Of a DNA stretch of 64,000 bases, positions 33,659 to 51,401 are shown piece by piece; the first letter of the stretch is position 1; every line of letters begins with the position of its first letter. The notes below the pieces were generated by a model. That model ran no database searches, was not told where the DNA came from, and saw only the letters and a list, made by a program, of their open reading frames with translations. The position numbers and the translations under genes are program-made. Origin of the DNA: an uncultured Sulfurovum sp. (lineage in GTDB: Bacteria > Campylobacterota > Campylobacteria > Campylobacterales > Sulfurovaceae); contig CAJXJN010000009.1 of NCBI GenBank assembly GCA_913055205.1, forward strand, positions 1-64,000. Reading direction: 5' to 3'.

Positions 33659-34891
33659 TTACCCGGGTAATCCGTCAGCACGAGGACTCAATAACCATTT
33701 AAAATAAATAGCAATATAGATAACAAAAGGTACACTCCAGACCAAAGCTGAACTCATATACAATGTGCTTGCAGCTTCAGGGTAGAATGCCACGGATGTT
33801 CTAAGTGCTGTTGCTACCAAGATAAGAAAAATACTTAAACAGATCCAGTTATTTCTCTCTTTGGCGATATCTCTTCCTGTATGGACAATGGTGACTACAA
33901 TCATAACAAGATAAAAAGAGAGTGTCCATGCTCCACTGGTGAGTACATGTAGGAAATCTCCATTATTGTAGTGCATACCGGTGAGATAATTGTATCCTAT
34001 CAGTCCATAGCCTATGGCAATAAGTACGGGTACAGTTATTAACGCACGAATAAGTCTTTTGCCCAAAATATTCTCTTCATCATAGGCGATAAAGTCATTG
34101 AATATCGCCAGACTTGCACTTGCCGTACCCAAAGCGATCCACCCCAACACCCTGTTGCCGGGGTAGAAGAATTCTACGGTGGCAAAAAGTGCGATCATGA
34201 ACATGGTTAGATTATACGCAGGTGGCCTGGCAAAGAAGATCTCTTCATTTTTTTCTTCCAGTTCTATGATTTCATTGACCGCTTCAATATTCACACGACG
34301 GATAGCCAACAAGATAAGCACCAAAAAAACCGCCAGGGAAATTTTGAGTATCTCCAAAGCAGGCGTCTGTACAAATCCAAGTACAGAAAGGTAGAACCAT
34401 ATCTGTGCCACTTGAACCGCTACAAAACCATACGCTACGCTCACATGCCTTTTGGCAGGGTCTTTGAAGATAGGCTTGGCTACCAGCGCAGTCAGCCATG
34501 CAAAAAGGAATATATTGATAACAGTAGAGGGGTAAGGCGTAATAATATCCATGAGCCAAAAGCTTACTCTGCCTGCTATCCACAATCCAAAGAGATTGCG
34601 TAACGTTTTACCCACTACCGGGATGGTTCCCGGATAAAGTTCCGGAGCCCCGGTAAAGATAAATGCCGCCATACCCAAAAAGCCTACACCAAACAGCATT
34701 TCATAAATATGCCAACTGAGTGTATCACCAATAAACGGCAAAGTAATGTAACCACTGTAGTAGAGTCCCCACAATACAATAGAGAGTATCATATAGGGAG
34801 CCATCAGTAAAAAAGCCGGACGAAAGCCATAAGCCAGATAAATTGGAACATCACCCTCAGGGTAGGATTCGTAGTGTTTTGTCGCTGCCAT
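33659..34891 (-). CDS. nnrS: NnrS family haem/copper-type membrane protein
   Basis: 410 residues, about 12 helices, beginning with a short cytoplasmic stretch and AYGFRPAFLLM, which is the NnrS opening motif, followed by SWHIYEMLFGVGFLGMAAFIFTGAPEL. NnrS proteins bind haem in the membrane and relieve nitric-oxide stress by an unclear mechanism; they are common beside nir/nor genes. It starts by a TAATG overlap after the ABC ATPase gene, so it belongs to the transporter operon. Confidence 0.93.
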   Translation of the reverse strand: MAATKHYESYPEGDVPIYLAYGFRPAFLLMAPYMILSIVLWGLYYSGYITLPFIGDTLSWHIYEMLFGVGFLGMAAFIFTGAPELYPGTIPVVGKTLRNLFGLWIAGRVSFWLMDIITPYPSTVINIFLFAWLTALVAKPIFKDPAKRHVSVAYGFVAVQVAQIWFYLSVLGFVQTPALEILKISLAVFLVLILLAIRRVNIEAVNEIIELEEKNEEIFFARPPAYNLTMFMIALFATVEFFYPGNRVLGWIALGTASASLAIFNDFIAYDEENILGKRLIRALITVPVLIAIGYGLIGYNYLTGMHYNNGDFLHVLTSGAWTLSFYLVMIVVTIVHTGRDIAKERNNWICLSIFLILVATALRTSVAFYPEAASTLYMSSALVWSVPFVIYIAIYFKWLLSPRADGLPG

Positions 34892-35628
34892 TATTTAAAC
34901 TCCAGTTCAAATGTCTCTATGATCTCTCTGTCACTGAGAAGTTTTGCTGTTTGAGTATAAACATACTCATCATCTCTTTGGGATTGAGGTACATCAAATT
35001 CAAATATCTTTACTATTCTTCCCGGATCAGGAGCAAGCAGCAGTATCTTGTCACTGAGCCTGATCGCCTCCATAATATCATGGGTAATGAAAAAGATAGT
35101 AATCTCTTTATCTGCTATGAGCTCCATCACATGGTCTTGCAGTTCTCTTTTAAGACCAATATCAAGCGCTGAGAAAGGTTCATCCAGAAACAGCAGTTTG
35201 GGTTTGGTCACCAGTGCTCTGGCAAAGGAAACCCGTTGGCTCATACCACCACTGAGTTCTTTGGGGAACTTCTCGAAGTCACTCTCTTCAAGATCGAATT
35301 TCAAAGCGATCTCTTTTGCTCTTGCTTCTCTCTCCTGAGAAGATACACCCATAGCTTTGAGTCCAAAGGCGATATTGTCTATCACATTTTTCCATGGAAG
35401 GAGTCTAGGGTCTTGAAAGGCAATGGCTTGTGTCTCAAAACTATTTTCTATCTTTCCATCCTGCCTGTCAAGCAGTCCGGAACAGAGACGGAGCAGTGTT
35501 GTCTTTCCTCCACCGCTGGGTCCGACAATGGAGACGACTTCCCCTTCCTTGATCTCAAAGTTGATATTATCCAAAATGGTATCATATCCGAAAGAGAAGC
35601 TCAGGTTCTCTACTTTTAATCTCGCCAT
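34891..35628 (-). CDS. NitT/TauT-type ABC transporter ATP-binding protein
   Basis: 245 residues. Walker A GPSGGGKTTLLRL, Q-loop AFQDPRLLPW, signature LSGGMSQRVSFARAL and Walker B LLFLDEPFSALD are all intact. The sequence type is the SsuB/TauB/NrtD group. It overlaps the permease gene by 13 bases and nnrS by one base. Substrate is not predictable from sequence. Confidence 0.93.
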   Translation of the reverse strand: MARLKVENLSFSFGYDTILDNINFEIKEGEVVSIVGPSGGGKTTLLRLCSGLLDRQDGKIENSFETQAIAFQDPRLLPWKNVIDNIAFGLKAMGVSSQEREARAKEIALKFDLEESDFEKFPKELSGGMSQRVSFARALVTKPKLLFLDEPFSALDIGLKRELQDHVMELIADKEITIFFITHDIMEAIRLSDKILLLAPDPGRIVKIFEFDVPQSQRDDEYVYTQTAKLLSDREIIETFELEFK

Positions 35629-36398
35629 TTTTCCACCTCTCTTTTGATAGGTTCGAGAAAGATATATTCTGCAACCATTAGTAAGCCGACCATTGCAACA
35701 ACAATAGCAAGAGCCGAAGCCGTATCAAGCTGACTTCTAGCCATTGCCAAGTCTGCACCCAAACCATCACTTGTGGCTAAAAGTTCTGCCATCACAACGA
35801 TCTTCCATGCCATACCAAGCGCAGCCACCCATGCAGGAAAAACATAAGAGAAGATATGAGGTAGATAAATGTCGAAAAACTTCATCATAAGCGGTACTTT
35901 AAATATGTCTGCCATCTCTTCAAACTTGTCTTCAAGTGTTCTTGTACCCTGTAAGGCACCTACAAAAACAATAGGCAAAGAGGCAACAATTACTGTAAAC
36001 TCAACCGTTGCATCTCCCATACCAAACCAGATCATAGCAAGAACGATCCATGCAATAGGAGGCATTCCCATCAAAATGGTCACGATAGGACGACTGACAA
36101 TAGAAGCAGTAACAAAAAATCCGGCAAGCAGTCCCAAAGCAGTCCCAACCACCAAGGAGATTCCAAACCCGACCATCGCACGGCGAAGCGTGATCATCAG
36201 GCCTTGTGTAAAATCGGGGTCTTTAAAAAGTGTCGCGAGCGTATGGAATGTCTCAAGCGGGGAAGGAAGAATCATATCCCCATAGACTTGATTACCTATA
36301 TCCCAAGCTGCAATAAAAAGGAATATCGAAGCAATCGCTCCCCAACCACTCCAAAGATAGGCAGGGAAATCTCTTAGAATTTTTAAAAGTGATTTCAC
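35616..36398 (-). CDS. NitT/TauT-type ABC transporter permease
   Basis: 260 residues with about six helices and the EAA-like segment EEMADIFKVPLMMKFFDIYLPHIFSYVFPA, plus ALGMAWKIVVMAELLATSDGLG, typical of SsuC/TauC/NrtB permeases. It lies five bases after the binding-protein gene and overlaps the ATPase. Confidence 0.93.
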   Translation of the reverse strand: MKSLLKILRDFPAYLWSGWGAIASIFLFIAAWDIGNQVYGDMILPSPLETFHTLATLFKDPDFTQGLMITLRRAMVGFGISLVVGTALGLLAGFFVTASIVSRPIVTILMGMPPIAWIVLAMIWFGMGDATVEFTVIVASLPIVFVGALQGTRTLEDKFEEMADIFKVPLMMKFFDIYLPHIFSYVFPAWVAALGMAWKIVVMAELLATSDGLGADLAMARSQLDTASALAIVVAMVGLLMVAEYIFLEPIKREVEKWRD

Positions 36399-36403
36399 TT
36401 TAG

Positions 36404-37378
36404 TTAGTCCTTTATATAAAATGCTTCATCGGGTACTGATCCTCCGATGATCTTTGGGTTGTCTTCTTTAAGCACATTAAAGAAGAAATTGAGTTCTTCT
36501 TGAGAGTCTATGGCTCTTTTTACATCAAGTTGCACATGGTCTATGGAGTCGGTAATAGCATCCGCATTGAACATTTCAACATATTTTACTATCAATTCAC
36601 CAGACTCTTTTTTATGTGTTTTATACCACTGCATCGCTTTGGTATATGCTTCTTCAAAGGCTTTAACAATCTCTTTTTTCTCTATCATGTCACCAACCAC
36701 TGCCATACCTGCCTGTGGTATTTTTGCTTCTCTGTTATAGATATCTCCCCACTCATCTTGCAAATCTATCCCTCTAAAAACAGTCGGTGCAATGATGCTT
36801 ACAGGAAACGATTTGGTTTTTCTAAGTACCATGGAAGTTGCAGGTTCAGGCAGTAAAATATTGTCCGCTCTTCTCATAATGAGCTGTTGTGCCGCATCCA
36901 TAGGGTTGGAGACATAGATAAGCTTGATATCCTCTTTTCCCAATCCTTTTTTCTTCATCACGGCTCTAAGCACGATATCAGGCATATCACCACGCCAAGG
37001 CACAACAAGCTCTTGCCCTTTAAGATCTTCAATATGCTTGACTTTCTTATCTCTGACAAGTATTTTTAAAATACCCCACACAGAGACATTGAGCATTTTG
37101 ATCAGCTGTTTTTTGTTGTAGAGAATAGAAGCGACATTGGTAGGTACGGCTACGAAGTCCACCTCTTTGTTGATGATCATCGCCCGAAGCTGATCGGGAT
37201 TTTTCCACATTTTGAACTCAACCTTATCGGCATACTCTTTAAGTACACCATCCTCTATCATCTTAAAGACGGGGTGCGAAACATTGGCAGCAGGTCCTGC
37301 AATAATGATCTTTTCCAGCTTCTGTGATGCTATTGAGAGTGTCAAAAGCACAGAGAGTATGAGTAATATTTTTTTCAT
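36404..37378 (-). CDS. ABC transporter periplasmic binding protein (SsuA/THI5-like)
   Basis: 324 residues with a signal peptide (MKKILLILSVLLTLSIASQ). The mature part is a two-lobed type II binding fold of the NMT1/SsuA kind: IIIAGPAANVSHPVFKMI, VDFVAVPTNVASILYNKK, DLKGQELVVPWRGDMPD, LLPEPATSMVLRK. First gene of the four-gene operon ending in nnrS. The ligand could be an anion, organosulfur compound or cofactor precursor; only position links it to NO metabolism. Confidence 0.88.
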   Translation of the reverse strand: MKKILLILSVLLTLSIASQKLEKIIIAGPAANVSHPVFKMIEDGVLKEYADKVEFKMWKNPDQLRAMIINKEVDFVAVPTNVASILYNKKQLIKMLNVSVWGILKILVRDKKVKHIEDLKGQELVVPWRGDMPDIVLRAVMKKKGLGKEDIKLIYVSNPMDAAQQLIMRRADNILLPEPATSMVLRKTKSFPVSIIAPTVFRGIDLQDEWGDIYNREAKIPQAGMAVVGDMIEKKEIVKAFEEAYTKAMQWYKTHKKESGELIVKYVEMFNADAITDSIDHVQLDVKRAIDSQEELNFFFNVLKEDNPKIIGGSVPDEAFYIKD

Positions 37379-37400
37379 AGTAAATCCTTTTATTTTACGT

Positions 37401-37441
37401 ATTATACGATTTTGATATTAATTATCATTGATTTATATCAA
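37401..37441 (-). promoter_or_regulatory. FNR-type promoter of the ABC-nnrS operon
   Basis: Box TTGAT-TTAT-ATCAA at 37428-37441 matches FNR at all ten bases. On the minus strand a perfect TATAAT lies at 37406-37401, 21 bases from the box, giving a near class II arrangement before the gene starting at 37378. The divergent outer-membrane gene at 37551 may also use this box, since the DNA on that side is A/T-rich. Confidence 0.75.
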
Positions 37442-37550
37442 GATTTTATTATTTTGATAATTATTATTAATATATAAGAGTATTTATTATATAGTTCTGA
37501 ATATCGTTATCATTAAGGTAAATAAGATATTAATTTTTAGAGGAATAATT

Positions 37551-38507
37551 ATGAAAAAAATAACAACGATACTCTCTCTGGGAGTCATACTGGGAATAAC
37601 ACAACTTAGTGCAGATGTAATGCCGGGGATTAACTCAAAAGGTGGAGGGATGCTGCTTCCGGAGGGCAAGATGAAGATAGTCTACAAATATATCAATTTT
37701 GACCGAAACAGTATGTTTGACGGTTCAAATGAAGTGCCAAACAAGGAGCAGTTGGATGCTACGGCAAATATAAATTTACTTGTATTGAATTATGGGGTAA
37801 CGAATGATTTCAATATTGCACTGGCAGTGCCGCATAAAAGTATTGAAGCCACAGCAAAACTTGGGGAAAACAATGTGGCTATTGAGAACAGCGGAATAGG
37901 TGATATTCTCTTAATGGGAAGATATAAACTCACTGATCTTAAACAGGATGGTTATCAGACTGCGTTAAAGATTGGGGTAAAACTGCCTACCGGTTCAACA
38001 GATGAGGGGTTTAAAAAAGCACCGCCATTTGCTCTTAATGTCAATACACCCCTGCCAACGCAGATGGGAACAGGTGCAGCAGAATACAAACTGGGGATCG
38101 GGATTTCAAAACTCTTCGGGAATGCCAGACTGGATGCGAATGCTATGTTTACCTACAGACCGGAAGCAGAACATGATTATGACTTTGGAAATGAGTTTTC
38201 CTATAATATAGGCTATATCCATGCCCTAAGCAAAAAGTTTAATATCGGACTTGAATATAACGGTAAGTACAATTCCAAAACAGATATGGGAGATGATACC
38301 AACCCGATGTTGCGTCAAATGCTACCATTCAAAGCATTCAGCGGTACGGTCGGCTACCTAACTCCACAGGTTCAATTCTTGCCGTTTGGAAAACCTAAAA
38401 TACATTTGGATCTCGGTGTTTCTCTCTTGCTTCATGAGAATGTAAAAGAGTATCAGCCATTGGAAAAGAAACGGTTTATTGTTCGGTTTGGGTATTTGTT
38501 TAAATGA
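37551..38507 (+). CDS. outer-membrane beta-barrel protein (phenol-degradation MetA-like family)
   Basis: 318 residues with a signal peptide ending near LSA. Alternating hydrophobic strands and a C-terminal phenylalanine region (RFIVRFGYLFK) are typical of a barrel. Segments such as LLPEGKMKIVYKYINFDR and GVKLPTGSTDEGF resemble the Phenol_MetA_deg family. It diverges from the ABC-nnrS operon across the FNR-type box and may be the outer-membrane route for the same substrate; that is inference. Confidence 0.7.
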   Translation: MKKITTILSLGVILGITQLSADVMPGINSKGGGMLLPEGKMKIVYKYINFDRNSMFDGSNEVPNKEQLDATANINLLVLNYGVTNDFNIALAVPHKSIEATAKLGENNVAIENSGIGDILLMGRYKLTDLKQDGYQTALKIGVKLPTGSTDEGFKKAPPFALNVNTPLPTQMGTGAAEYKLGIGISKLFGNARLDANAMFTYRPEAEHDYDFGNEFSYNIGYIHALSKKFNIGLEYNGKYNSKTDMGDDTNPMLRQMLPFKAFSGTVGYLTPQVQFLPFGKPKIHLDLGVSLLLHENVKEYQPLEKKRFIVRFGYLFK

Positions 38508-38543
38508 CTGCTTACTGCAGGGTAACAACTCTGCAGTTTAAGA

Positions 38544-38957
38544 CTATATTTTACACCCTCTTCCGGCAATATCCTCCAAACTTGATTCCCGAAACATTTT
38601 TTGCAGTAAAAGTTTTGGTTCCATCCATTGATCATGCAAGGCACATTTACACAGGCCATTGCAAAATCCTATACCCAAAACACACTGCTCGTCTTTAATA
38701 GAATCGTTAAAGATATCCAAAATATCACTCACCATGATTTCAGAGGTTTTCTTTTCAAATTTATATCCACCTTCTCTTCCCCGTATGGATACTACTAAAC
38801 CAACTTTCACAAGTTCCGTCATGATTTTAGTCAAAAATTTATAGGGTATATATAATGCTTCAGCCAGTTCTGTAGCATTCATGAGTTTAGAATCTTTTTG
38901 ATCTGCCATATAAGCTAAGATTCTTATAGCATATTTGGAACTGTTACTCAATTGCAT
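38544..38957 (-). CDS. Rrf2-family transcriptional regulator
   Basis: 137 residues. The winged helix opens MQLSNSSKYAIRILAYMA and continues LAEALYIPYKFLTKIMTELVKVGLV, the Rrf2 recognition region. The C-terminal part holds the cluster-binding cysteines: CVLGIGFCNGLCKCALHDQW (four Cys), fitting an NsrR/IscR-type Fe-S sensor. It diverges from the second nor operon, whose promoter has two matching palindromes. NO-sensing is therefore the most likely role, although this is inferred from context. Confidence 0.88.
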   Translation of the reverse strand: MQLSNSSKYAIRILAYMADQKDSKLMNATELAEALYIPYKFLTKIMTELVKVGLVVSIRGREGGYKFEKKTSEIMVSDILDIFNDSIKDEQCVLGIGFCNGLCKCALHDQWMEPKLLLQKMFRESSLEDIAGRGCKI

Positions 38958-39013
38958 ATGACTCCTTTAAATTATCATTTATACATCATATTATACAAAA
39001 AAAAATATAATTA

Positions 39014-39072
39014 CTACTTAAAGGTAGAATTAATCTTATCTTGCTAATATTCCAATTACTACTCAATGGTAG
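39014..39072. promoter_or_regulatory. pair of CTAC-N6-GTAG palindromes (likely Rrf2 operators)
   Basis: CTACTTAAAGGTAG (39014-39027) and CTACTCAATGGTAG (39059-39072) lie 45 bp apart. Both are embedded in ATTACTACT-NAA-NGGTAGAATT. The second lies 21 bases before the norC start codon, where a bound repressor would block transcription. The adjacent regulator gene is Rrf2 family. Confidence 0.75.
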
Positions 39073-39093
39073 AATTTTAAAAGAGGATAATCC

Positions 39094-39540
39094 ATGACTG
39101 AACGTATAACGAAAAGTATGGCAAAAAACATCTATTATGGTGGCGGTACATTCGCACTTATGATATTTATTGCCCTTACTTTTGATACTGTACATCAAAT
39201 TCCAAAACGATCAAATCAGCAGAATATGACAGAGAGTGTTGTAGCTGGGAAAAAACTTTGGGAGAAAAACGACTGTGTCGGTTGTCATACTATTGTGGGA
39301 GAAGGCGCATATTATGCACCGGAACTCATGAATGTATTTCAAAGAAGAGGAGCTTCAGATGAAGCAACATTTAAAGCTTATATGCAAGGGTGGATGGCTG
39401 CACAACCGCTTAGTGCACCAAATAGAAGAAAGATGCCACAGTTTCATTTAACTCCGGCAGAAGTCGATCATTTATCAGACTTTTTAATTTGGACATCAAA
39501 AGTAAATGCCAATGACTGGCCACCAACAATTGAAGGGTAG
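39094..39540 (+). CDS. norC: nitric oxide reductase cytochrome c subunit, second copy
   Basis: 148 residues, the usual NorC size: N-terminal helix (about 14-32), haem site CVGCH near residue 62, GEGAYYAPELMNVF and KMPQFHLTPAEVDHLSDFL with the axial methionine. First gene of norC-norB-norD-norQ-norE-norF-like. Shorter and distinct from the copy at 8428. Confidence 0.96.
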   Translation: MTERITKSMAKNIYYGGGTFALMIFIALTFDTVHQIPKRSNQQNMTESVVAGKKLWEKNDCVGCHTIVGEGAYYAPELMNVFQRRGASDEATFKAYMQGWMAAQPLSAPNRRKMPQFHLTPAEVDHLSDFLIWTSKVNANDWPPTIEG

Positions 39541-40926
<1,386 letters not shown>

Positions 40927-40942
40927 TTGGGGATAAAGAAAA

Positions 40943-42745
40943 ATGCTTCACTATTGGCTTGAGTTTGAAGAAAGTATCGGTAAGGTTTGGGACAACTACC
41001 TGAACAGGAAAGTACATAAATTTCATGAAGAGCAAAAAGTCTATTTTGAAGATATCAGTAAGTCATTAAATATTTTTCATCGCCTTATGGGTGGTGAAAA
41101 AGCAAAAGAGCTACAAATTACAGACAAAAGATATGTCGAGACTTCCAGAACTCTCCTGCAAAAAATATCATTTTTGGGAAAAGAGTTTTTTTTAACATGG
41201 CAAGATGAAGAGTCTGTTTATCTGCCTGCATCTTTTGCCTATTTTTCTACAAAAGAAGAGAATGAGATGCTCTACTACTGGCTTGTGGCTATGGCAACAC
41301 AAGTAGAGAATGTTACGAACCATAATCTCATAGAACAAAATCTAAAGGCTATGCACTACCTCACAAAACGCTACAGTGGATTCGATATTTTTTACAAGCA
41401 ATCGAGCCAGTATCTTATGGATAAATATGAGCAATTGTCATTTCTTAAATCTTTAGATGAGCAATCAAATCAAGATTTAACAAATGATTATCCCAATCCC
41501 CTCTGGATATATCCGCCAGCCATTACGCTAAATTATGCAAATAATATTGAAGATGAAGAACAGGAAGAGCCAATAAGAGAAGAGGGTAAAGACAAATCTG
41601 AAGAGCTGCATATGAAAAAGCAGACGAATCAGATAGATGACAAGCATGAAACAGACGGTTTTTTGGCTTTTTTACCGGAATCTTTGATGAGTATTTTTGA
41701 ACAGGTCAATGTGGACAGATGCGAAGATGACAGTTTTGATGAAGACGCACTCTATCATGCTGAAGATCTAGATGAGATAACCATAGGACAAAAGCAGGCA
41801 AATTTATCGGCACGAATTAAAATGGATTTGGAGTTATTACCCGATACAACCGTTCTATATCCTCTAGGCAAAGGGCATTTCATAGATGAATGGGATTATT
41901 TAAAATCTGAATACTTGGTAAAATATGTACGTATTTTACCTCAGGTAACTACAAATGTAATACCTACAGAACTGCCCGTAAGACTGAAAAAAACGGTACG
42001 GAAAATTCAAGGAGAATTAGATCTTTTGCAGCTCGATCGCATAAAAAATGACAATCTCCCTTATGGTGATGAGATCAATATTGACAGTTGGATAGAATAT
42101 TTCGGGCATCAAAACAAATCGATGCATCATCAAAAATTTTATACAACTTTTGAAAAAAAGACACGAGACATGTCCACATTGATTTTGGCAGATATTTCTC
42201 TCTCTACGGAGGGTGGTATCACACAGGAAGTACGGATCATTGATGTTATCAAAGATTCTTTGATGGTTTTTAGTGAAGCTCTTGAAAAACTCCAGGATAA
42301 ATTTGCCATTTATACTTTCTCGTCACTGCAAAACAAAAAGGTTTATTTTAATATCATCAAAAATTTCAAAGATAAATATGATGCGTTGATTCGCGGAAGA
42401 ATAGACACCATTAAACCGCAATACTATACACGAATGGGTGCAGCCATAAGAGAATCTGCCAAAATCTTAGACAAACAACAAAGTGCCAATAAATTGCTTT
42501 TAATCATAAGTGACGGTAAGCCAAATGATGAAGATAGGTATGATGGGAGATACGGCATAGAAGATACAAAAAAAGCGCTTGAAGAAGTGAAACAAAAAGG
42601 CATCACTCCTTTTTGTATTACCGTTGATCTGGACGCAAAAGAGTATTTGGGATACTTATTTGGAAGAAACGGCTATGCCGTTGTACGGGATGGTCAGAAG
42701 TTACCAAAAGTACTTACCGAAGTCTATATAAACTTAACAAAATAA
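40943..42745 (+). CDS. norD: NorD-like von Willebrand A domain protein
   Basis: 600 residues. The C-terminal third is a VWA domain with the MIDAS motif DISLST (near residue 415) and LLIISDGKPNDEDRYDG. The long N-terminal region is helical, with an acidic middle (DEEQEEPIREEGKDKSEEL). With the AAA+ protein NorQ it forms a VWA-MoxR pair needed to mature NorCB. Directly follows norB. Confidence 0.92.
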   Translation: MLHYWLEFEESIGKVWDNYLNRKVHKFHEEQKVYFEDISKSLNIFHRLMGGEKAKELQITDKRYVETSRTLLQKISFLGKEFFLTWQDEESVYLPASFAYFSTKEENEMLYYWLVAMATQVENVTNHNLIEQNLKAMHYLTKRYSGFDIFYKQSSQYLMDKYEQLSFLKSLDEQSNQDLTNDYPNPLWIYPPAITLNYANNIEDEEQEEPIREEGKDKSEELHMKKQTNQIDDKHETDGFLAFLPESLMSIFEQVNVDRCEDDSFDEDALYHAEDLDEITIGQKQANLSARIKMDLELLPDTTVLYPLGKGHFIDEWDYLKSEYLVKYVRILPQVTTNVIPTELPVRLKKTVRKIQGELDLLQLDRIKNDNLPYGDEINIDSWIEYFGHQNKSMHHQKFYTTFEKKTRDMSTLILADISLSTEGGITQEVRIIDVIKDSLMVFSEALEKLQDKFAIYTFSSLQNKKVYFNIIKNFKDKYDALIRGRIDTIKPQYYTRMGAAIRESAKILDKQQSANKLLLIISDGKPNDEDRYDGRYGIEDTKKALEEVKQKGITPFCITVDLDAKEYLGYLFGRNGYAVVRDGQKLPKVLTEVYINLTK

Positions 42746-42756
42746 AAAGGAAAAAA

Positions 42757-43548
42757 ATGTCAAAAACATATTATCTGCCTCAATCCAATGAAGTGGAACT
42801 TTTTAAAGCCGCAGCACAGATGAACCTGCCTGTTTTAATCAAGGGTCCAACTGGATGCGGTAAAACCAGATTTATTGAATCTATGGGTGAAGAACTTGGA
42901 CGTGATGTGTATACAGTTGTTTGTCATGATGATCTAAGTGCAGCCGATCTGGTTGGCCGCCATCTTATAGATGAAAATGGTACCTATTGGCAGGATGGTC
43001 CTTTAACCAAAGCTGTAAGAAATGGCGGTATATGTTACATCGATGAAATCATTGAAGCCAGAAAAGATACGACTGTTGTGCTTCACTCTCTAGCAGATTA
43101 CCGTAGAGTGCTGCCGATAGACAGAACAGGTGAAACGATAGAAGCGCATCCTGACTTTATGCTTGTGGTTTCTTACAATCCCGGGTATCAAAATGTACTC
43201 AAAGGGATGAAGCCGAGTACCAAACAGCGTTTTATTTCACTCAGTTTTAATTATCCCAAAGCAGAGATAGAAAAAGAAGTGCTTATGAAAGAGAGTGGTA
43301 TTGATGAAGCAACAGCGCAAAAACTTGTAGATATAGCCGGAGAGATCAGACAATTGAGTGATACCGACATTCAGGAAGCTGTCTCTACAAGACTTCTTAT
43401 TTATGCGGGAAAATTAATGACAAAAGGTTTTGATCCATATCAAGCCTGTATGCACTCTATAGTAGAATCACTCAGTGATGAAGAAGATGTCCTCGAAGTG
43501 CTTGAAAAACTGATAGCTTTACATTTTGTAAAGAGTTCCCATGTCTAA
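42757..43548 (+). CDS. norQ: NorQ-like MoxR AAA+ ATPase
   Basis: 263 residues. Walker A GPTGCGKTRF (near residue 30), Walker B GICYIDEI (the MoxR form), sensor 1 SYNPGYQNV and arginine region STKQRFISLSF. Thought to insert the non-haem iron into NorB with NorD. Start has AAAGGA upstream. Overlaps norE by 8 bases. Confidence 0.94.
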   Translation: MSKTYYLPQSNEVELFKAAAQMNLPVLIKGPTGCGKTRFIESMGEELGRDVYTVVCHDDLSAADLVGRHLIDENGTYWQDGPLTKAVRNGGICYIDEIIEARKDTTVVLHSLADYRRVLPIDRTGETIEAHPDFMLVVSYNPGYQNVLKGMKPSTKQRFISLSFNYPKAEIEKEVLMKESGIDEATAQKLVDIAGEIRQLSDTDIQEAVSTRLLIYAGKLMTKGFDPYQACMHSIVESLSDEEDVLEVLEKLIALHFVKSSHV

Positions 43549-46266: not shown

Positions 46267-47484
46267 TTATTTTATCTCTTTTAACTGCCTGCTTATATAA
46301 AAACCCAGTGCCAACAACACTATACTCAAAAAATATATGACTGTATAACTACCTACGAACTTCAAAATGATGCCTCCCAATACAGGAAAGAAAAGTCCTA
46401 AAGAGCTAATATTGGTCTGTAGGGCTGTATAGACAGGTCGTTTATCTTCAGGTGCTATCTCTATGACCAGATTCATCCCCGAAATATTAAATCCATCCAG
46501 TGCCACACCAAAAAGTAAAAAGATCATAGCATATGCATATACATTATTGGCAAAGAGTGCAATCATAAAGGCGGATATCATCAAGAGGAAACTAAGTGAA
46601 AGCATTTTCTCATAGCTCTCGATCTTTCTCCACAAAAAAGTACTTCCTATGATACTTCCCAACATCTGTACAGTGATAAATCCACCCAACATCCACCCGG
46701 TTAAGGTAAAAGCACTATGGGCATTCAAAATGACAAAAGGCATAGACAAAAAGTAGCTAAAACTGAGAAATATAGCGATGATCTGTTGTTGCAATCTTTT
46801 ATCTTCTTTTAAAAGCATCATTGCATTTTTAATAAATATTTTAAAGTGCTTCTCTTTCGTGGAGATATTCTCTTTTTCAGGCTCTTCAATCGTTACAAAA
46901 GTAGCAAACCCTATCACCATAAAAGCACTGCTCACCATAAAAAGATAGGCATAATTGAGAGGTGCCTCATAGTGGTTTAACACATACCCGGCTACTCCCC
47001 CGCTGATAATAGAGGCAATAGAACCTGCCACTTGTCTGTTTGCCATGGTTTTACCACGATACTTTTTAGAAAAAAGCTTGGCTTGAAGCTCTTTAAAATA
47101 GATCGCACCAAACCCTGCAGTAAAAGAGAAGAAAAAGAGTCCCAAACCTATAAAAAAGAGGGTCAATGATTTGTTACTGTCACCAATAAAGTAGATACTT
47201 ACACCTATGGATAACCAACTAATAAATCTAAAAAAGAAAACTTTTCCCAAATAAGGTAAGACCCTTTTATAGGCTTGGGCATGAAATGCAGCGTAGAGTT
47301 GTATCATAATTGCCCCTCCACGAAGCAAAGAAGCAAAAATACCTACAATAATCATACTGTCACTAAAGTGGTGTACCATTAAAGGTAAAATAGTAGAAGG
47401 CTCAGCTATGGTAATAGCCAGAGCCAAAAAGAAAGCGTGTACTACATTTTTATAGTTGTTTTTAGGGTCATCTACTCTAAACAT
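46267..47484 (-). CDS. major facilitator superfamily transporter
   Basis: 405 residues with about 12 hydrophobic helices and the loop motif KYRGKTMANRQVAGSIASII. No substrate signature. It is the last gene of a unit with trmO-, nifX-type and DUF134 genes upstream, ending just 3 bases after trmO. Confidence 0.85.
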   Translation of the reverse strand: MFRVDDPKNNYKNVVHAFFLALAITIAEPSTILPLMVHHFSDSMIIVGIFASLLRGGAIMIQLYAAFHAQAYKRVLPYLGKVFFFRFISWLSIGVSIYFIGDSNKSLTLFFIGLGLFFFSFTAGFGAIYFKELQAKLFSKKYRGKTMANRQVAGSIASIISGGVAGYVLNHYEAPLNYAYLFMVSSAFMVIGFATFVTIEEPEKENISTKEKHFKIFIKNAMMLLKEDKRLQQQIIAIFLSFSYFLSMPFVILNAHSAFTLTGWMLGGFITVQMLGSIIGSTFLWRKIESYEKMLSLSFLLMISAFMIALFANNVYAYAMIFLLFGVALDGFNISGMNLVIEIAPEDKRPVYTALQTNISSLGLFFPVLGGIILKFVGSYTVIYFLSIVLLALGFYISRQLKEIK

Positions 47485-47487
47485 ACA

Positions 47488-47982
47488 CTATCTCTGGACA
47501 AATCTGTCATCAGATTTTTTCTTACTTACCTCTTCCGTACTGGCTTTCATCCAACCTGATCTTACCACTCCTTCTACTTTGTCAAAATTTTCTATATAGG
47601 GTTTAATATCCAGCAATGGTGTACCATCCAATATATCTACCCCCTTTATAGTGACAATATTCTCTTCTACCTTAACCAACTCGACTACTGAAAGCCCCAT
47701 ACTGTTAGGGTGCATAGGTGTTCGAGTAGAGAATACACCTCTTGGAGTATTGGTTTTATCATTAAAGGGAACCACACTCAGTTTTGGCTCTTTCACTTCA
47801 TGAAAATAATAGATAAGATAAACATGGCTAAAACCATCCAGATCTTTGAGCCCCTCTTGATACTCTTTTTCAAACTCTATGGTCGCATAAACTTCTTTTG
47901 CCCCCTTGGGTTGGACAGGCATATTGACCAGGTCACAAAAAGGGGAGCGAATGGTGGCGATTTGTTTTAAGGTAAAAGTCAT
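47488..47982 (-). CDS. trmO: TrmO-family (YaeB/TsaA) tRNA m6t6A37 methyltransferase
   Basis: 164 residues with the YaeB fold motifs: IATIRSPFCDLVNMPVQP, DGFSHVYLIYYFHE, TPRGVFSTRTPMHPNSMGLSVVEL and GTPLLDIKPYI. The enzyme methylates N6-threonylcarbamoyladenosine in some tRNAs. Some homologues have unknown roles, so I call it TrmO-like. Starts one base before the NifX-type gene ends. Confidence 0.85.
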   Translation of the reverse strand: MTFTLKQIATIRSPFCDLVNMPVQPKGAKEVYATIEFEKEYQEGLKDLDGFSHVYLIYYFHEVKEPKLSVVPFNDKTNTPRGVFSTRTPMHPNSMGLSVVELVKVEENIVTIKGVDILDGTPLLDIKPYIENFDKVEGVVRSGWMKASTEEVSKKKSDDRFVQR

Positions 47983-48366
47983 TTAATGCTTCTCTCCATG
48001 TGTGTGTTTACCTTCATGATGTTCTATGATCATATCTATATTGGTATCATCTATTTCCAGCAATTCACCAGTATTAAACTTTTCCAAAACATCATTTAAG
48101 AGTATCCTTTCATCTCCTGCATGAAACAGATCCATAGTACCTACTTCCTTGATCATCTCATATGGTGTTACTCCCATTTTCTGAAAGATAATAGTATTAA
48201 CCCCCAATGAAACAAACCACTCAATAACAGATTTACCGCCATGAACCGGATTTTTTTCGATAGTTACTTTACCCTCTTCTACAATTGCAAACCATTTGGC
48301 TTTACCAAAGAGTGGTGCCAACGGCGGATTTTCTCTATTTAATTTTACGGGTATTGCTATTTTCAT
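47983..48366 (-). CDS. NifX/NifB-type dinitrogenase iron-molybdenum cofactor family protein, His-rich tail
   Basis: 127 residues starting MKIAIPVKLN at 48366 (site AAGGA). The fold is the NifX/NifB C-terminal/NafY type (AIPVK...PLFGKAKWFAIVEEGKV). The last residues (HHEGKHTHGEKH) form a metal-binding tail. Such proteins carry metal clusters outside nitrogenase too, often beside DUF134, as here. The DUF134 gene overlaps it by 32 bases. Confidence 0.82.
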   Translation of the reverse strand: MKIAIPVKLNRENPPLAPLFGKAKWFAIVEEGKVTIEKNPVHGGKSVIEWFVSLGVNTIIFQKMGVTPYEMIKEVGTMDLFHAGDERILLNDVLEKFNTGELLEIDDTNIDMIIEHHEGKHTHGEKH

Positions 48367-48670
48367 TTTTTTCCTTTCTATTTTCAATATTCATTACGAT
48401 GGCTTTGCTATGAAGCAAGGCATCAGAGATCTTTTTATGGGCATTTTCAATTATTCTTGAAAAAGTTGTTCTTGATATTCCCATTTTATCTGCACACTCT
48501 TGTTGATAATATCCTTCAAAGTCACTCAAACGAATTGCTTCCATTTCATCTTCATTCAAGCTAATTTTCTCAAGATTCCTACCTCGAATCCCACAAGGTT
48601 TAAAGCAGACTTCACTATGATCTTTTTCTATAGTTCTCTCAATTTTTCTACGTCCTAGTTGTTGCATCAT
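48335..48670 (-). CDS. DUF134 family putative DNA-binding protein
   Basis: 111 residues. The core KISLNEDEMEAIRLSDFEGYYQQECADKMGISRTTFSRIIENAHKKISDALL is a sigma-factor region 4-like helix-turn-helix, the mark of DUF134. Cysteines in VCFKPCGIRG may bind metal. Probably regulates its own cluster with the NifX-type gene. No experimental role known to me. Confidence 0.85.
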   Translation of the reverse strand: MMQQLGRRKIERTIEKDHSEVCFKPCGIRGRNLEKISLNEDEMEAIRLSDFEGYYQQECADKMGISRTTFSRIIENAHKKISDALLHSKAIVMNIENRKEKNENSNTRKIK

Positions 48671-48713
48671 AATCCTTGCATATAAAATTAAGTTTTGATA
48701 ACTTGGTTAAGTC

Positions 48714-48938
48714 CTATCTTTTTTCAAAGCCTCTATTGTGAGCTTCCCTTCTACCTAAACCTTTACCAAAACCTTGACCATTGCCTTGACACAATTGATT
48801 ATTTCTATTTACACCACCACGGCCTTCTCCTTTCTCTTGTCCATTTCTAAGACCTTGTCCCCGACCGGCACCTTGACCATTTCCATGACCATCACATAAT
48901 CCCTGTCCTAAGCCTTGTCTATCTTCTTTATTTTTCAT
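48714..48938 (-). CDS. small Gly/Gln/Arg-rich protein
   Basis: 74 residues, MKNKEDRQGLGQGLCDGHGN and on through GQG, GRG and GNG repeats, ending GRREAHNRGFEKR. Three short cysteine/histidine points (LCDGHG, LCQGNG) could bind metal. Start at 48938 is supported by AAAGGAG; a longer reading to 48974 has no site. Low-complexity Gly-rich peptides of this type sit beside DUF134/NifX-type genes in several bacteria (memory). Confidence 0.7.
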   Translation of the reverse strand: MKNKEDRQGLGQGLCDGHGNGQGAGRGQGLRNGQEKGEGRGGVNRNNQLCQGNGQGFGKGLGRREAHNRGFEKR

Positions 48939-48990
48939 AGTATCTCCTTTGAAATAAATTCCATCTATGCACATATGACCAAAATTATAC

Positions 48991-49004
48991 TGAACATATG
49001 TTCA
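48991..49004. promoter_or_regulatory. 14-bp perfect palindrome upstream of the Gly/Gln-rich gene
   Basis: TGAACATATGTTCA is a perfect dyad 53-66 bases upstream of the small Gly-rich gene and over the stop codon of the methyltransferase gene. A related CACATATG occurs 20 bases nearer. Resembles ArsR/SmtB-type operators; regulator unknown (DUF134 is a candidate). Confidence 0.45.
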
Positions 49005-49544
49005 AAAGTCAATCCTTTTTGAATATTTATTTAGAAAAAGTAATTTTAGACATTTCCAACGAAAAGAGACCATAGGTACTTTTTGACGATAGCCCTCATA
49101 TGCTTCACCAAACTTCCTACTCACTTCCATCTCTTCAAAGATAATAACCATTACAACAATAAAAAGCATCTCCAAAGGGGCAATACTCTTTATAAATGTA
49201 GGTGAGCCAAGAAGTAGAGCCCAACCTAAAGGCAAAAGCGTCAATCCAAAGAGCATAGGGTGACGCATACAACTGTAAAGCCCTGTAGTTACAAGTTGGT
49301 TGGTTTCCAAACGAGGAATGTTCCCCACCCTGCCTTTAGCCAGTTCTCTCCCTCCATTTGCAGCTGCACGAAATGCTAAAACAAGTAAAACCATACCTGA
49401 AACAGCTGTTATAAAATGAAACTGAAGACTACTGAAGAGTGGTGTATTCCAATCTTTTATTATAGAATAGATTGCACCACCCATCATCATTACAAGCCAT
49501 AAAAGCATACGAATAACCACTGATGCGGAAGTGTTTATCTTCAT
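49002..49544 (-). CDS. isoprenylcysteine/phospholipid methyltransferase-like membrane protein
   Basis: 180 residues, with about five helices and the SAM-binding-type C-terminal motif LVTTGLYSCMRHPMLFGL and FGEAYEGYRQKVP found in ICMT/PEMT-type membrane methyltransferases (also NnrU-like). Start chosen at ATG 49544 just after the preceding gene; an earlier ATG at 49583 would overlap it. Substrate unknown. Confidence 0.75.
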   Translation of the reverse strand: MKINTSASVVIRMLLWLVMMMGGAIYSIIKDWNTPLFSSLQFHFITAVSGMVLLVLAFRAAANGGRELAKGRVGNIPRLETNQLVTTGLYSCMRHPMLFGLTLLPLGWALLLGSPTFIKSIAPLEMLFIVVMVIIFEEMEVSRKFGEAYEGYRQKVPMVSFRWKCLKLLFLNKYSKRIDF

Positions 49545-49548
49545 CGAA

Positions 49549-50061
49549 CTACTTTTTAATATAGGTAACAAACTCATCCTCATCTACTTTTTGCAGATAA
49601 ACCTCATATCCTAATTTGATAAACTCATCAATCAATGGCTCTGGCTGAAAATCAGAAACAACAGTTACGACCTCACCCTTTTCAAGATTTCGCAGTGCCT
49701 TATGCACTTCTGCAAGAGGATTAAGCTCTTTATCCAGCAATTCTTTAACATCCAATATAGAGGCCGGTTTGTTTAATATCCACTTTGGTACTTCAGATGC
49801 TACAGTTTTAGTTTCATCATCTACTGCACCTTCCAGTACTTCTTGCCCAACAGCTTTTCGTAATTTATTGAGTAAATCCATAGGATCCATACCCCCAACA
49901 ATAGCTGCTTGCTTTACCCCTGCTATTTTAGCAAGCGTTCGTCTTAAAACAGGATTATTAAGCTTTTTAAATTTAGGGTTGATATCTATTAAAATATCTT
50001 TCATCCCCTCATAATCATTTAACAAATCAGATATTTTGGTCTCCAGTGTTATCTCTTTCAT
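49549..50061 (-). CDS. DUF1858-DUF2249 two-domain protein
   Basis: 170 residues. N-terminal part (ITLETKISDLLNDYEGMKDILIDINPKFKKLNNPVLRRTLAKIAGVKQAA) is DUF1858-like; C-terminal part (ASILDVKELLDKELNPLAEVHKALRNLEKGEVVTVVSDFQPEPLIDEFIKLGYEVY) is DUF2249, a TusA-like fold lacking the sulfur-accepting Cys. Such pairs occur with hemerythrin-like and NO-related proteins. Overlaps the MFS gene by 4 bases. Confidence 0.8.
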   Translation of the reverse strand: MKEITLETKISDLLNDYEGMKDILIDINPKFKKLNNPVLRRTLAKIAGVKQAAIVGGMDPMDLLNKLRKAVGQEVLEGAVDDETKTVASEVPKWILNKPASILDVKELLDKELNPLAEVHKALRNLEKGEVVTVVSDFQPEPLIDEFIKLGYEVYLQKVDEDEFVTYIKK

Positions 50062-51401
50062 CTTTTTGCTCCTATTTTATGTAAAAAGTTTGTAATATTC
50101 TCTTCATCTATCTCATCTTCATCATACTTAATGATGATAAGTTCCTCAGTCTCATTAATATAAAAATCTGTAATGCCCTCTAATATTTTTAATCCTTCAA
50201 GCTTCTCTTTATTATGTGTATCAAAGTCTAAAAAGAGATTTGCTCTAAGCCCTGGATTCCTCATGCTTGCAATCCAATATATCCATACCACTGAAATAAT
50301 CGAAACAAAAACAGCTACACCTGTTTCATGATAATGTTGATAGAGATACCCACCTATAGCGCCTCCAAGGAAGATACCAATATAAGAGAAGGTATTGGCA
50401 ACACCAAGAGCAGCCCCTTTTTGATGTACTTTAGCAAATTTACTCACAAAGCTTTGTAAAAGTGGTTCAAACATATTAAACCCTATAAAGAAAAAGACTG
50501 CGCCTATCGCGAATCCTATAAAACTACCAGAGAAACCCATAAGTAAAAATGAAGCAACAATAAATCCTATTGAGGCAATAAATACCTCTTTTCCTTTGCT
50601 GTATTTTTCACCTAAGATAGCTGCAGGTGCCATTGCTATAATTCCAAATATTACAGCAGGAAGATAAACTTTCCAATAATCCATAGTACCCATTCCAAAC
50701 TTCTCCTTCATTAAAATAGGAATAATAAAAAAAGCAATTGCCATCGTAGAGCTATGAAAGAGAAAGGTAATATACATTCTGACTAAATCTTTATCTTTAA
50801 AAACATGTTTAATTTTTGCTTCCTCTTCACTGTAATGATGAACAATTTTTGGAGCCTCAGGTACGGCAGTAAACAGGATTACCAAGGCACTAATAGACAA
50901 AATAGCTGTCAGCCAAAAAAGTGATGAAACACTAAATACTCCTGCCATAACAGGACCGATAATCATCGCTGCTGCAAAACTCATGGCAATAGTCATACCC
51001 ATAACAGCCATCGCATGTGCTCTTTGATCTTCACGCACATGGTCGGCGATCATTGCCGTTACCACTGAACCGATCGCTCCAGCCCCTTGCAAAAAACGGC
51101 CAAGTAGAAGTATATAGATATTGTCAGCCAATGCAGCCACTATCGAGCCTGCTGCAAAAAGAAGTAATCCAAACAAAATAGTCTTTTTGCGACCAATCTT
51201 ATCACTCATCACTCCAAATGGTACTTGCAACACAGCCTGTGTTAAGGCATATCCACCCAATGCTATACCCGCAAAAAAGGCATTACCTCCAGGTAGATCT
51301 TTTGCGTATTGTGAAAGCACCGACAAGACAATAAACAGCCCAAAAAATCTAAGGGCAACAATAAGACTTAATGGTAGTACCTTTCTTACAATTTCTTTCA
51401 T
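50058..51401 (-). CDS. MFS transporter with C-terminal cytosolic domain
   Basis: 447 residues. The first 385 are a 12-helix major facilitator with SDKIGRKKTILFGLLL and GRFLQGAGAIGSVVTAMIADHV (drug/H+ antiporter or nitrate/nitrite-like type). The last about 60 residues (KEKLEGLKILEGITDFYINETEELIIIKYDEDEIDEENI) are soluble with a beta-alpha-beta pattern like a heavy-metal-associated domain but without CXXC. Substrate unknown. First gene of its unit, followed by the DUF1858 protein. Confidence 0.85.
   Translation of the reverse strand: MKEIVRKVLPLSLIVALRFFGLFIVLSVLSQYAKDLPGGNAFFAGIALGGYALTQAVLQVPFGVMSDKIGRKKTILFGLLLFAAGSIVAALADNIYILLLGRFLQGAGAIGSVVTAMIADHVREDQRAHAMAVMGMTIAMSFAAAMIIGPVMAGVFSVSSLFWLTAILSISALVILFTAVPEAPKIVHHYSEEEAKIKHVFKDKDLVRMYITFLFHSSTMAIAFFIIPILMKEKFGMGTMDYWKVYLPAVIFGIIAMAPAAILGEKYSKGKEVFIASIGFIVASFLLMGFSGSFIGFAIGAVFFFIGFNMFEPLLQSFVSKFAKVHQKGAALGVANTFSYIGIFLGGAIGGYLYQHYHETGVAVFVSIISVVWIYWIASMRNPGLRANLFLDFDTHNKEKLEGLKILEGITDFYINETEELIIIKYDEDEIDEENITNFLHKIGAKR

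Follow-up and report, generated by a model that had tools for sequence, protein, structure and literature searches.

The window, meaning the whole stretch of 64,000 nucleotides analysed, contains eight neighbouring genes for transporters, tRNA and membrane methyltransferases, a putative regulator and proteins of unclear joint role. A reading of the sequence alone had proposed them as one candidate system with a metal-handling unit and a conspicuous palindrome inside it. Two questions are raised by this locus: whether the eight genes belong together, and which protein reads the palindrome.

Gene content and division into two units

All eight open reading frames lie on the minus strand at the proposed positions (Table 1), in a Campylobacterota draft assembly of 1.66 Mb and 86% completeness. 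The families named from the sequence hold up as well: MFS_1 is found twice, and TrmO, PF02579, DUF134, PEMT, DUF1858 and DUF2249 match their profiles or exceed the cut-offs. DUF134 scores 74.1 bits (cut-off 27) over residues 2-94, and PF02579 scores 29.0 bits (cut-off 26.3). Two starts were refined: the NifX-type gene most likely begins with the ATG at 48366, and the Gly-rich gene at 48938, with the ribosome site AAAGGAG. MFS2 combines an MFS core with a C-terminal extension similar to 3wdo, as in YajR-type transporters; this extension is also weakly similar to a heavy-metal-associated domain. A search for structured RNA at the locus gave no Rfam match.

Table 1. Features of the locus, with coordinates in the window unless a related locus is named
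Feature	Coordinates	Strand	Basis
MFS transporter 1 (MFS1)	46267..47484	-	MFS_1 match
TrmO-type tRNA methyltransferase	47488..47982	-	TIGR00104, 129.9 bits, cut-off 93.25
NifX-type protein (PF02579), no cysteine, His-rich tail HHEGKHTHGEKH	47983..48366	-	Profile match and predicted fold
DUF134 (PF02001) regulator, sigma-region-4-like helix-turn-helix	48335..48670	-	Profile match, model
Gly/Gln/Asn-rich cationic peptide, 74 aa, pI 10.5, motif NRNxQxCQGNGxGxGxGxGRxxxHNRxF	48714..48938	-	20 family members share the C-terminal motif
Operator copy 2, TGGTCATATGTGCA, weaker, directly after the -10 box	48968..48981	.	CATATG core 23 bp from copy 1 core
Core promoter TTGACT-17-TATAAT of the DUF134 module	48984..49012	-	Best promoter-like site of the 5.5-kb region, 11/12
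Operator copy 1, TGAACATATGTTCA, fills the -35/-10 spacer (17 bp)	48991..49004	.	Conserved upstream of DUF134 in relatives
PEMT/ICMT-like membrane methyltransferase, unit A	49002..49583	-	PEMT match
DUF1858-DUF2249 protein, unit A	49549..50061	-	DUF1858 and DUF2249 matches
MFS transporter 2 (MFS2), YajR family, C-terminal extension, unit A	50058..51401	-	PDB 3wdo, E 3.6e-72, residues 11-428
48-aa cysteine-rich peptide, examples in related loci	L128 1016-1162; L159 1026-1175; L160 1852-1998		

The proposal that these genes form one system fared less well. The eight genes are real but constitute two units, split at the operator, of which unit A (MFS2, the DUF1858-DUF2249 protein and the PEMT-like methyltransferase) is a separate operon that is joined directly to TrmO in genomes lacking DUF134. 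In such relatives (L176, L183, L180), the order is MFS2, DUF1858-DUF2249, PEMT and TrmO, followed in some by a NifU-like gene or MFS1, and only a few bases separate PEMT from TrmO. The window has a block of ~1.0 kb between PEMT and TrmO-MFS1, consisting of the operator, the Gly-rich gene, DUF134 and the NifX-type gene; a DUF134-NifX-TrmO-MFS1 unit is also found in other relatives, for example L071. This block may represent an insertion in the window or a loss in the relatives.

It is rather unlikely that all eight genes serve a single NO/nitrite or sulfur function with the DUF134 module as local control. Such a unit would accord with the ties of DUF1858-DUF2249 proteins to nitrate respiration (DrpB, PMC6282519) and denitrification (PMC11218638, PMC6710368), with a nor-nnrS cluster at 33-44 kb of the window, with a DUF1858-DUF2249 homologue near DUF134 in L036, and with a Klebsiella plasmid stretch where DUF134-NifX is accompanied by a PEMT/ICMT gene. 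However, unit A is situated upstream of the operator, and three genomes (G020, G015, G025) have it in complete form without DUF134, and MFS2 and PEMT occur in only 3 and 2 of 81 DUF134 operons, respectively. The nor-nnrS cluster itself (33659-43548) comprises norC, norB, norD/norQ-like genes, NnrS and an Rrf2-type regulator, and is located at lower coordinates than the DUF134 module, several kb away. The possible NO or nitrite link of the DUF1858-DUF2249 and transporter pair, raised in the sequence-only reading, draws on the denitrifier literature and on this cluster.

A tandem operator within the module promoter

The palindrome noted in the sequence-only reading is exact, and nowhere else in the 1.66-Mb genome is there a site that matches it with one mismatch or fewer. 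An independent promoter scan ranked TTGACT-17-TATAAT as the best of the region, with the palindrome occupying its spacer and overlapping the stop codon of PEMT. Operator copy 2 recurs, as TGGTCATATGT, in the promoters of other Gly-rich genes (L121, L125, L126). When a larger regulon was sought in the window's genome, the remaining TGNNCATATGTNC sites were all intragenic, and the promoter of the DUF134 module appears to be the only operator target there.

This geometry bears on the direction of control. It is improbable that DUF134 activates the module promoter instead of repressing it: the fold resembles sigma region 4 and regulators that act through the spacer exist, but 11 of the 12 positions in the -35 and -10 boxes fit the consensus, and one operator copy occupies the spacer and the other the stretch following the -10 box, where steric repression usually acts. 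Repression by DUF134 is hence the reading carried forward below.

Conservation of the operator across relatives and phyla

In a de novo hexamer test, CATATG occurred in 55 of 80 upstream regions of Campylobacterota DUF134 genes versus 67 of 752 control upstreams (P 1.6e-32), and in an unbiased count no hexamers were more enriched than GAACAT, CATATG and words overlapping them; in these motif counts, related genomes were treated as separate after a simple redundancy filter. The pattern upstream of DUF134 is the same in this phylum whatever gene stands further upstream. CATATG lies within the spacer of 39/56 strong promoters versus 11/77 controls. In L037, the core has changed to CATAAG, identically in both copies. 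Of 37 non-redundant pairs, 29 have a spacing of 22-23 or 33-34 bp, and these distances prevail in Campylobacterota; the two classes differ by one helical turn, which suggests that two dimers would be bound on one face of the DNA.

The same core is present beyond this phylum. Among gammaproteobacteria, CATATG precedes DUF134 in seven of eight cases (5/83 in controls), with two copies in all seven; their plasmids carry tandem GCATATGC-type pairs, and tandem TGACATATGTCA is found before DUF134 in Selenomonas. The CATATG core is all that the gammaproteobacterial sites have in common with those of Campylobacterota. The motif upstream of DUF134 is degenerate at best or absent in Salinivibrio, Acetoanaerobium and Parabacteroides. 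A strong copy immediately upstream of DUF134 is also absent in 24 of 74 loci; in many of these, albeit not all, DUF134 is inside an operon and the operator precedes the first gene.

The reverse search ties the operator to DUF134 from the other side. The exact pattern TTGACNNNTGNACATATGTNC has ten sites in the 397 genomes sampled of the phylum (zero for the reversed control). DUF134 is present in all ten genomes concerned, against a base rate of 74/397 (P 3e-8), and eight of the ten sites adjoin it. The two others belong to genomes with DUF134 elsewhere: one precedes cydA of cydAB (G296), and one lies between a 77%-identical MFS1 homologue from another genus and a metallo-hydrolase (MBL) gene (G369), in the promoter region of the homologue. 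G034 and G035 have a second such site, ahead of a NifX/Gly-rich/Mrp cluster. Since sites also precede cydA, the MFS1 homologue and these clusters, the operator marks a predicted regulon, of which MFS1-type and cydAB genes are members in some species.

It is thus very probable that the adjacent DUF134 regulator binds the palindrome. That it belongs to another regulator, with DUF134 adjacent by accident, is highly improbable. The form TGAA-N6-TTCA is similar to ArsR/SmtB sites, and CGAACATATGTTCG to Gram-positive LexA boxes; in addition, TGAACAnnTGTTCA repeats precede a 217-aa TetR gene in nine related genomes. Yet these nine genomes lack DUF134, in contrast to the ten exact-operator genomes, all of which have it. 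None of the three families is a convincing owner in the window's genome, where PF01726 (LexA) has no match, the promoters of the two ArsR genes are without the motif, and no TetR orthologue was found (34% identity over 64 residues only). Furthermore, the TetR sites vary in their centre, whereas DUF134 sites keep CATATG. The nine DUF134-less relatives (L130, L131, L139, L140, L144, L145) have up to four TGAACAnnTGTTCA palindromes ~42 bp apart before the autoregulated-looking TetR gene, followed by a SAM-methyltransferase-like gene.

The DUF134 regulator and its neighbourhoods

DUF134 is carried by 74 of the 397 sampled Campylobacterota genomes. Plasmid records with DUF134 number at least 185 and are for the most part enterobacterial (mainly Klebsiella and Citrobacter); two scans of viral contigs gave no relative. 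Among 5.39 million open papers, 22 were found to mention DUF134, and in none of these does the title or abstract set out what it does as a regulator. The model of the window protein is reliable in the helix-turn-helix only (mean pLDDT 74.5), and the termini are not interpreted. This element resembles sigma region 4 and the DNA-binding domain of Bacillus subtilis DeoR.

One refuting outcome named in the sequence-only reading was a neighbourhood conserved no further than DUF134-NifX. The linkage goes beyond this pair: DUF134, NifX-type and Gly-rich genes recur together across Campylobacterota, while DUF134-NifX is found on gammaproteobacterial plasmids and in Bacillota. DUF134 is therefore seen in several bacterial phyla beside putative metal- or iron-sulfur-binding (NifX-type) proteins, and it is fused to a PF02579 domain in several genomes. 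DUF134 operons further include cydAB, NifU-like, TrmO, MFS1, a SLAC1 channel with DUF302, an ArsP-like permease and Mrp. Neighbours on enterobacterial and Aeromonas-type plasmids include SLAC1, a PaaI thioesterase, TauE, TrmO and a PEMT-type methyltransferase, and a Klebsiella plasmid adds a disulfide oxidoreductase with a rhodanese domain. On the plasmids inspected (L150-L154, L166, L167), DUF134 is paired with NifX, and SLAC1, PaaI, Dps, ArsR or the rhodanese-bearing oxidoreductase is nearby in some.

The NifX-type protein and the Gly-rich peptide

The predicted fold of the NifX-type protein matches TM1290, TM1816, PH0822 and apo-ORP, with a TM-score of ~0.7 to 1rdu, 1t3v, 2yx6 and 2wfb. Its group is cysteine-poor, with most members cysteine-free, and has a conserved HHExxHxH end and tails whose last 25 residues contain as many as 16 histidines; the NifX-type protein next to DUF134 in Sulfurimonas has its histidines in an internal loop instead. 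The protein is not NifX proper, the nitrogenase cofactor carrier, as nif context is missing. A single PF02579 domain was found in the 86%-complete genome, so NifB, NafY and a second NifX are lacking, in agreement with the earlier remark that no nitrogenase is present.

The Gly/Gln-rich peptide is more than a spurious frame. It has neither an NCBIfam match nor a meaningful Pfam match, but it represents a new conserved family: 20 members share the C-terminal motif, and the cysteine of their CQGNG-like motifs is invariant. The family is present in 13 of the 81 DUF134 operons, in many cases ahead of Mrp ATPases, and a Gly-rich tail is fused to NifX in L039, L120 and L148. The L148 fusion (676-1284, from G035) is intact under the operator; its G034 counterpart (L147, 1541-1936) looks truncated in the NifX half. 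Another small peptide, of 48 aa and rich in cysteine (CNNxxCxxxxxCxRY...GCKxF), occurs in several families, where its gene separates DUF134 from the Gly-rich or Mrp gene; it has no Pfam match.

A probable self-regulated module and its possible signal

The proposed metal-handling unit stands in its composition, as DUF134, the NifX-type protein, the Gly-rich peptide and the palindrome do belong together; as to its role, metal handling would suit both the His-rich tails and the fusion of NifX to a Gly-rich tail. Sequence comparison established the operator and its geometry, the link between operator and DUF134, the fusions, and the neighbourhoods. From them we infer actual binding, repression rather than activation, a sensor role for NifX and the nature of the signal. 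On this basis, 47983-49012 is probably a self-regulated module in which DUF134 represses its own promoter and the NifX-type protein senses a metal or an iron-sulfur/sulfide species. DUF134 would bind the CATATG palindromes, whose tandem copies overlap both the -35/-10 spacer and the transcript start. In this way it would repress the promoter that serves the Gly-rich peptide, DUF134, NifX, TrmO and MFS1. Its sensor partner may be the NifX-type protein with the His-rich tail, which other species have fused to DUF134; repression would be relieved once this protein binds the metal or iron-sulfur/sulfide species. The NifX-type protein and the Gly-rich peptide could then bind or buffer that species, with TrmO and MFS1 co-induced.

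Because the genes linked to DUF134 differ from case to case (cydAB, Mrp ATPases, SLAC1 channel, ArsP-like permease, TauE), no single pathway reveals the signal. Cytochrome bd tolerates sulfide and NO, and several DUF134 neighbours may reflect sulfide or polysulfide stress. IssA, the thioferrate storage protein of Pyrococcus furiosus, unites PF02579 and Gly-rich parts in a single chain (PMC5524996); in MrpORP, an Fe-S cluster is bound by the PF02579 domain (PMC6345978). The two-part likeness to IssA and this Fe-S binding are the grounds for proposing an iron-sulfur or sulfide signal; the signal may instead be another metal, such as Cu, Ni or Zn, bound through the histidines.

Both DUF134 and the NifX-type protein paired with it occur widely and are uncharacterised. 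The DUF134 family hereby gains a predicted DNA target, an outline of a regulon and a partner suggested by fusions, all of which are directly testable. If the signal is an iron-sulfur/sulfide species, one regulator would connect sulfide stress with respiration (cydAB) and with Fe-S carriers (Mrp, NifU-like) in sulfur-oxidising vent and sediment bacteria.

Comparison with known systems

The DUF1858-DUF2249 protein of unit A shares its domain order with DrpB of Thermus thermophilus, in which two DUF2249 domains follow DUF1858 (PMC6282519). The window protein has only one and is not a DrpB; among the genes next to its own, neither DrpA nor a nar operon partner was found. The helix-turn-helix of DUF134 is 39% identical over 41 residues to the DeoR-operator structure of B. 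subtilis (7bhy), but DUF134 lacks the sugar-binding effector domain and has a NifX-type partner.

ORP/MrpORP of Desulfovibrio is likewise a PF02579 protein, relatives of the window cluster include Mrp/NBP35 ATPases, and the predicted fold matches apo-ORP (2wfb). ORP operons are controlled by sigma54 (PMC6345978), unlike the window, whose promoter is of sigma70 type with CATATG operators and whose cluster is without Mrp; the locus is thus not assigned to this system.

A further parallel is with IssA. There, the Gly-rich part is in the same chain, whereas in the window it is a separate gene without aromatic residues, and the NifX part is His-tailed and tied to a DUF134 regulator, with storage putative; the window protein is not classed as an IssA on this account, even though the tail is fused in the three relatives named above. 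As in IssA (PMC5524996), a PF02579/IPR003731 domain with few or no cysteines would work with a cationic, disordered, Gly-rich segment that carries cysteine. Tentatively, and with more doubt than the module itself, DUF134 in at least three phyla might represent a class of repressor not described before, which would act at tandem CATATG palindromes and sense iron-sulfur/sulfide by means of a His-/Gly-rich NifX-type partner or fused domain, the Gly-rich peptide then being the detached half of an IssA-like iron-sulfide store.
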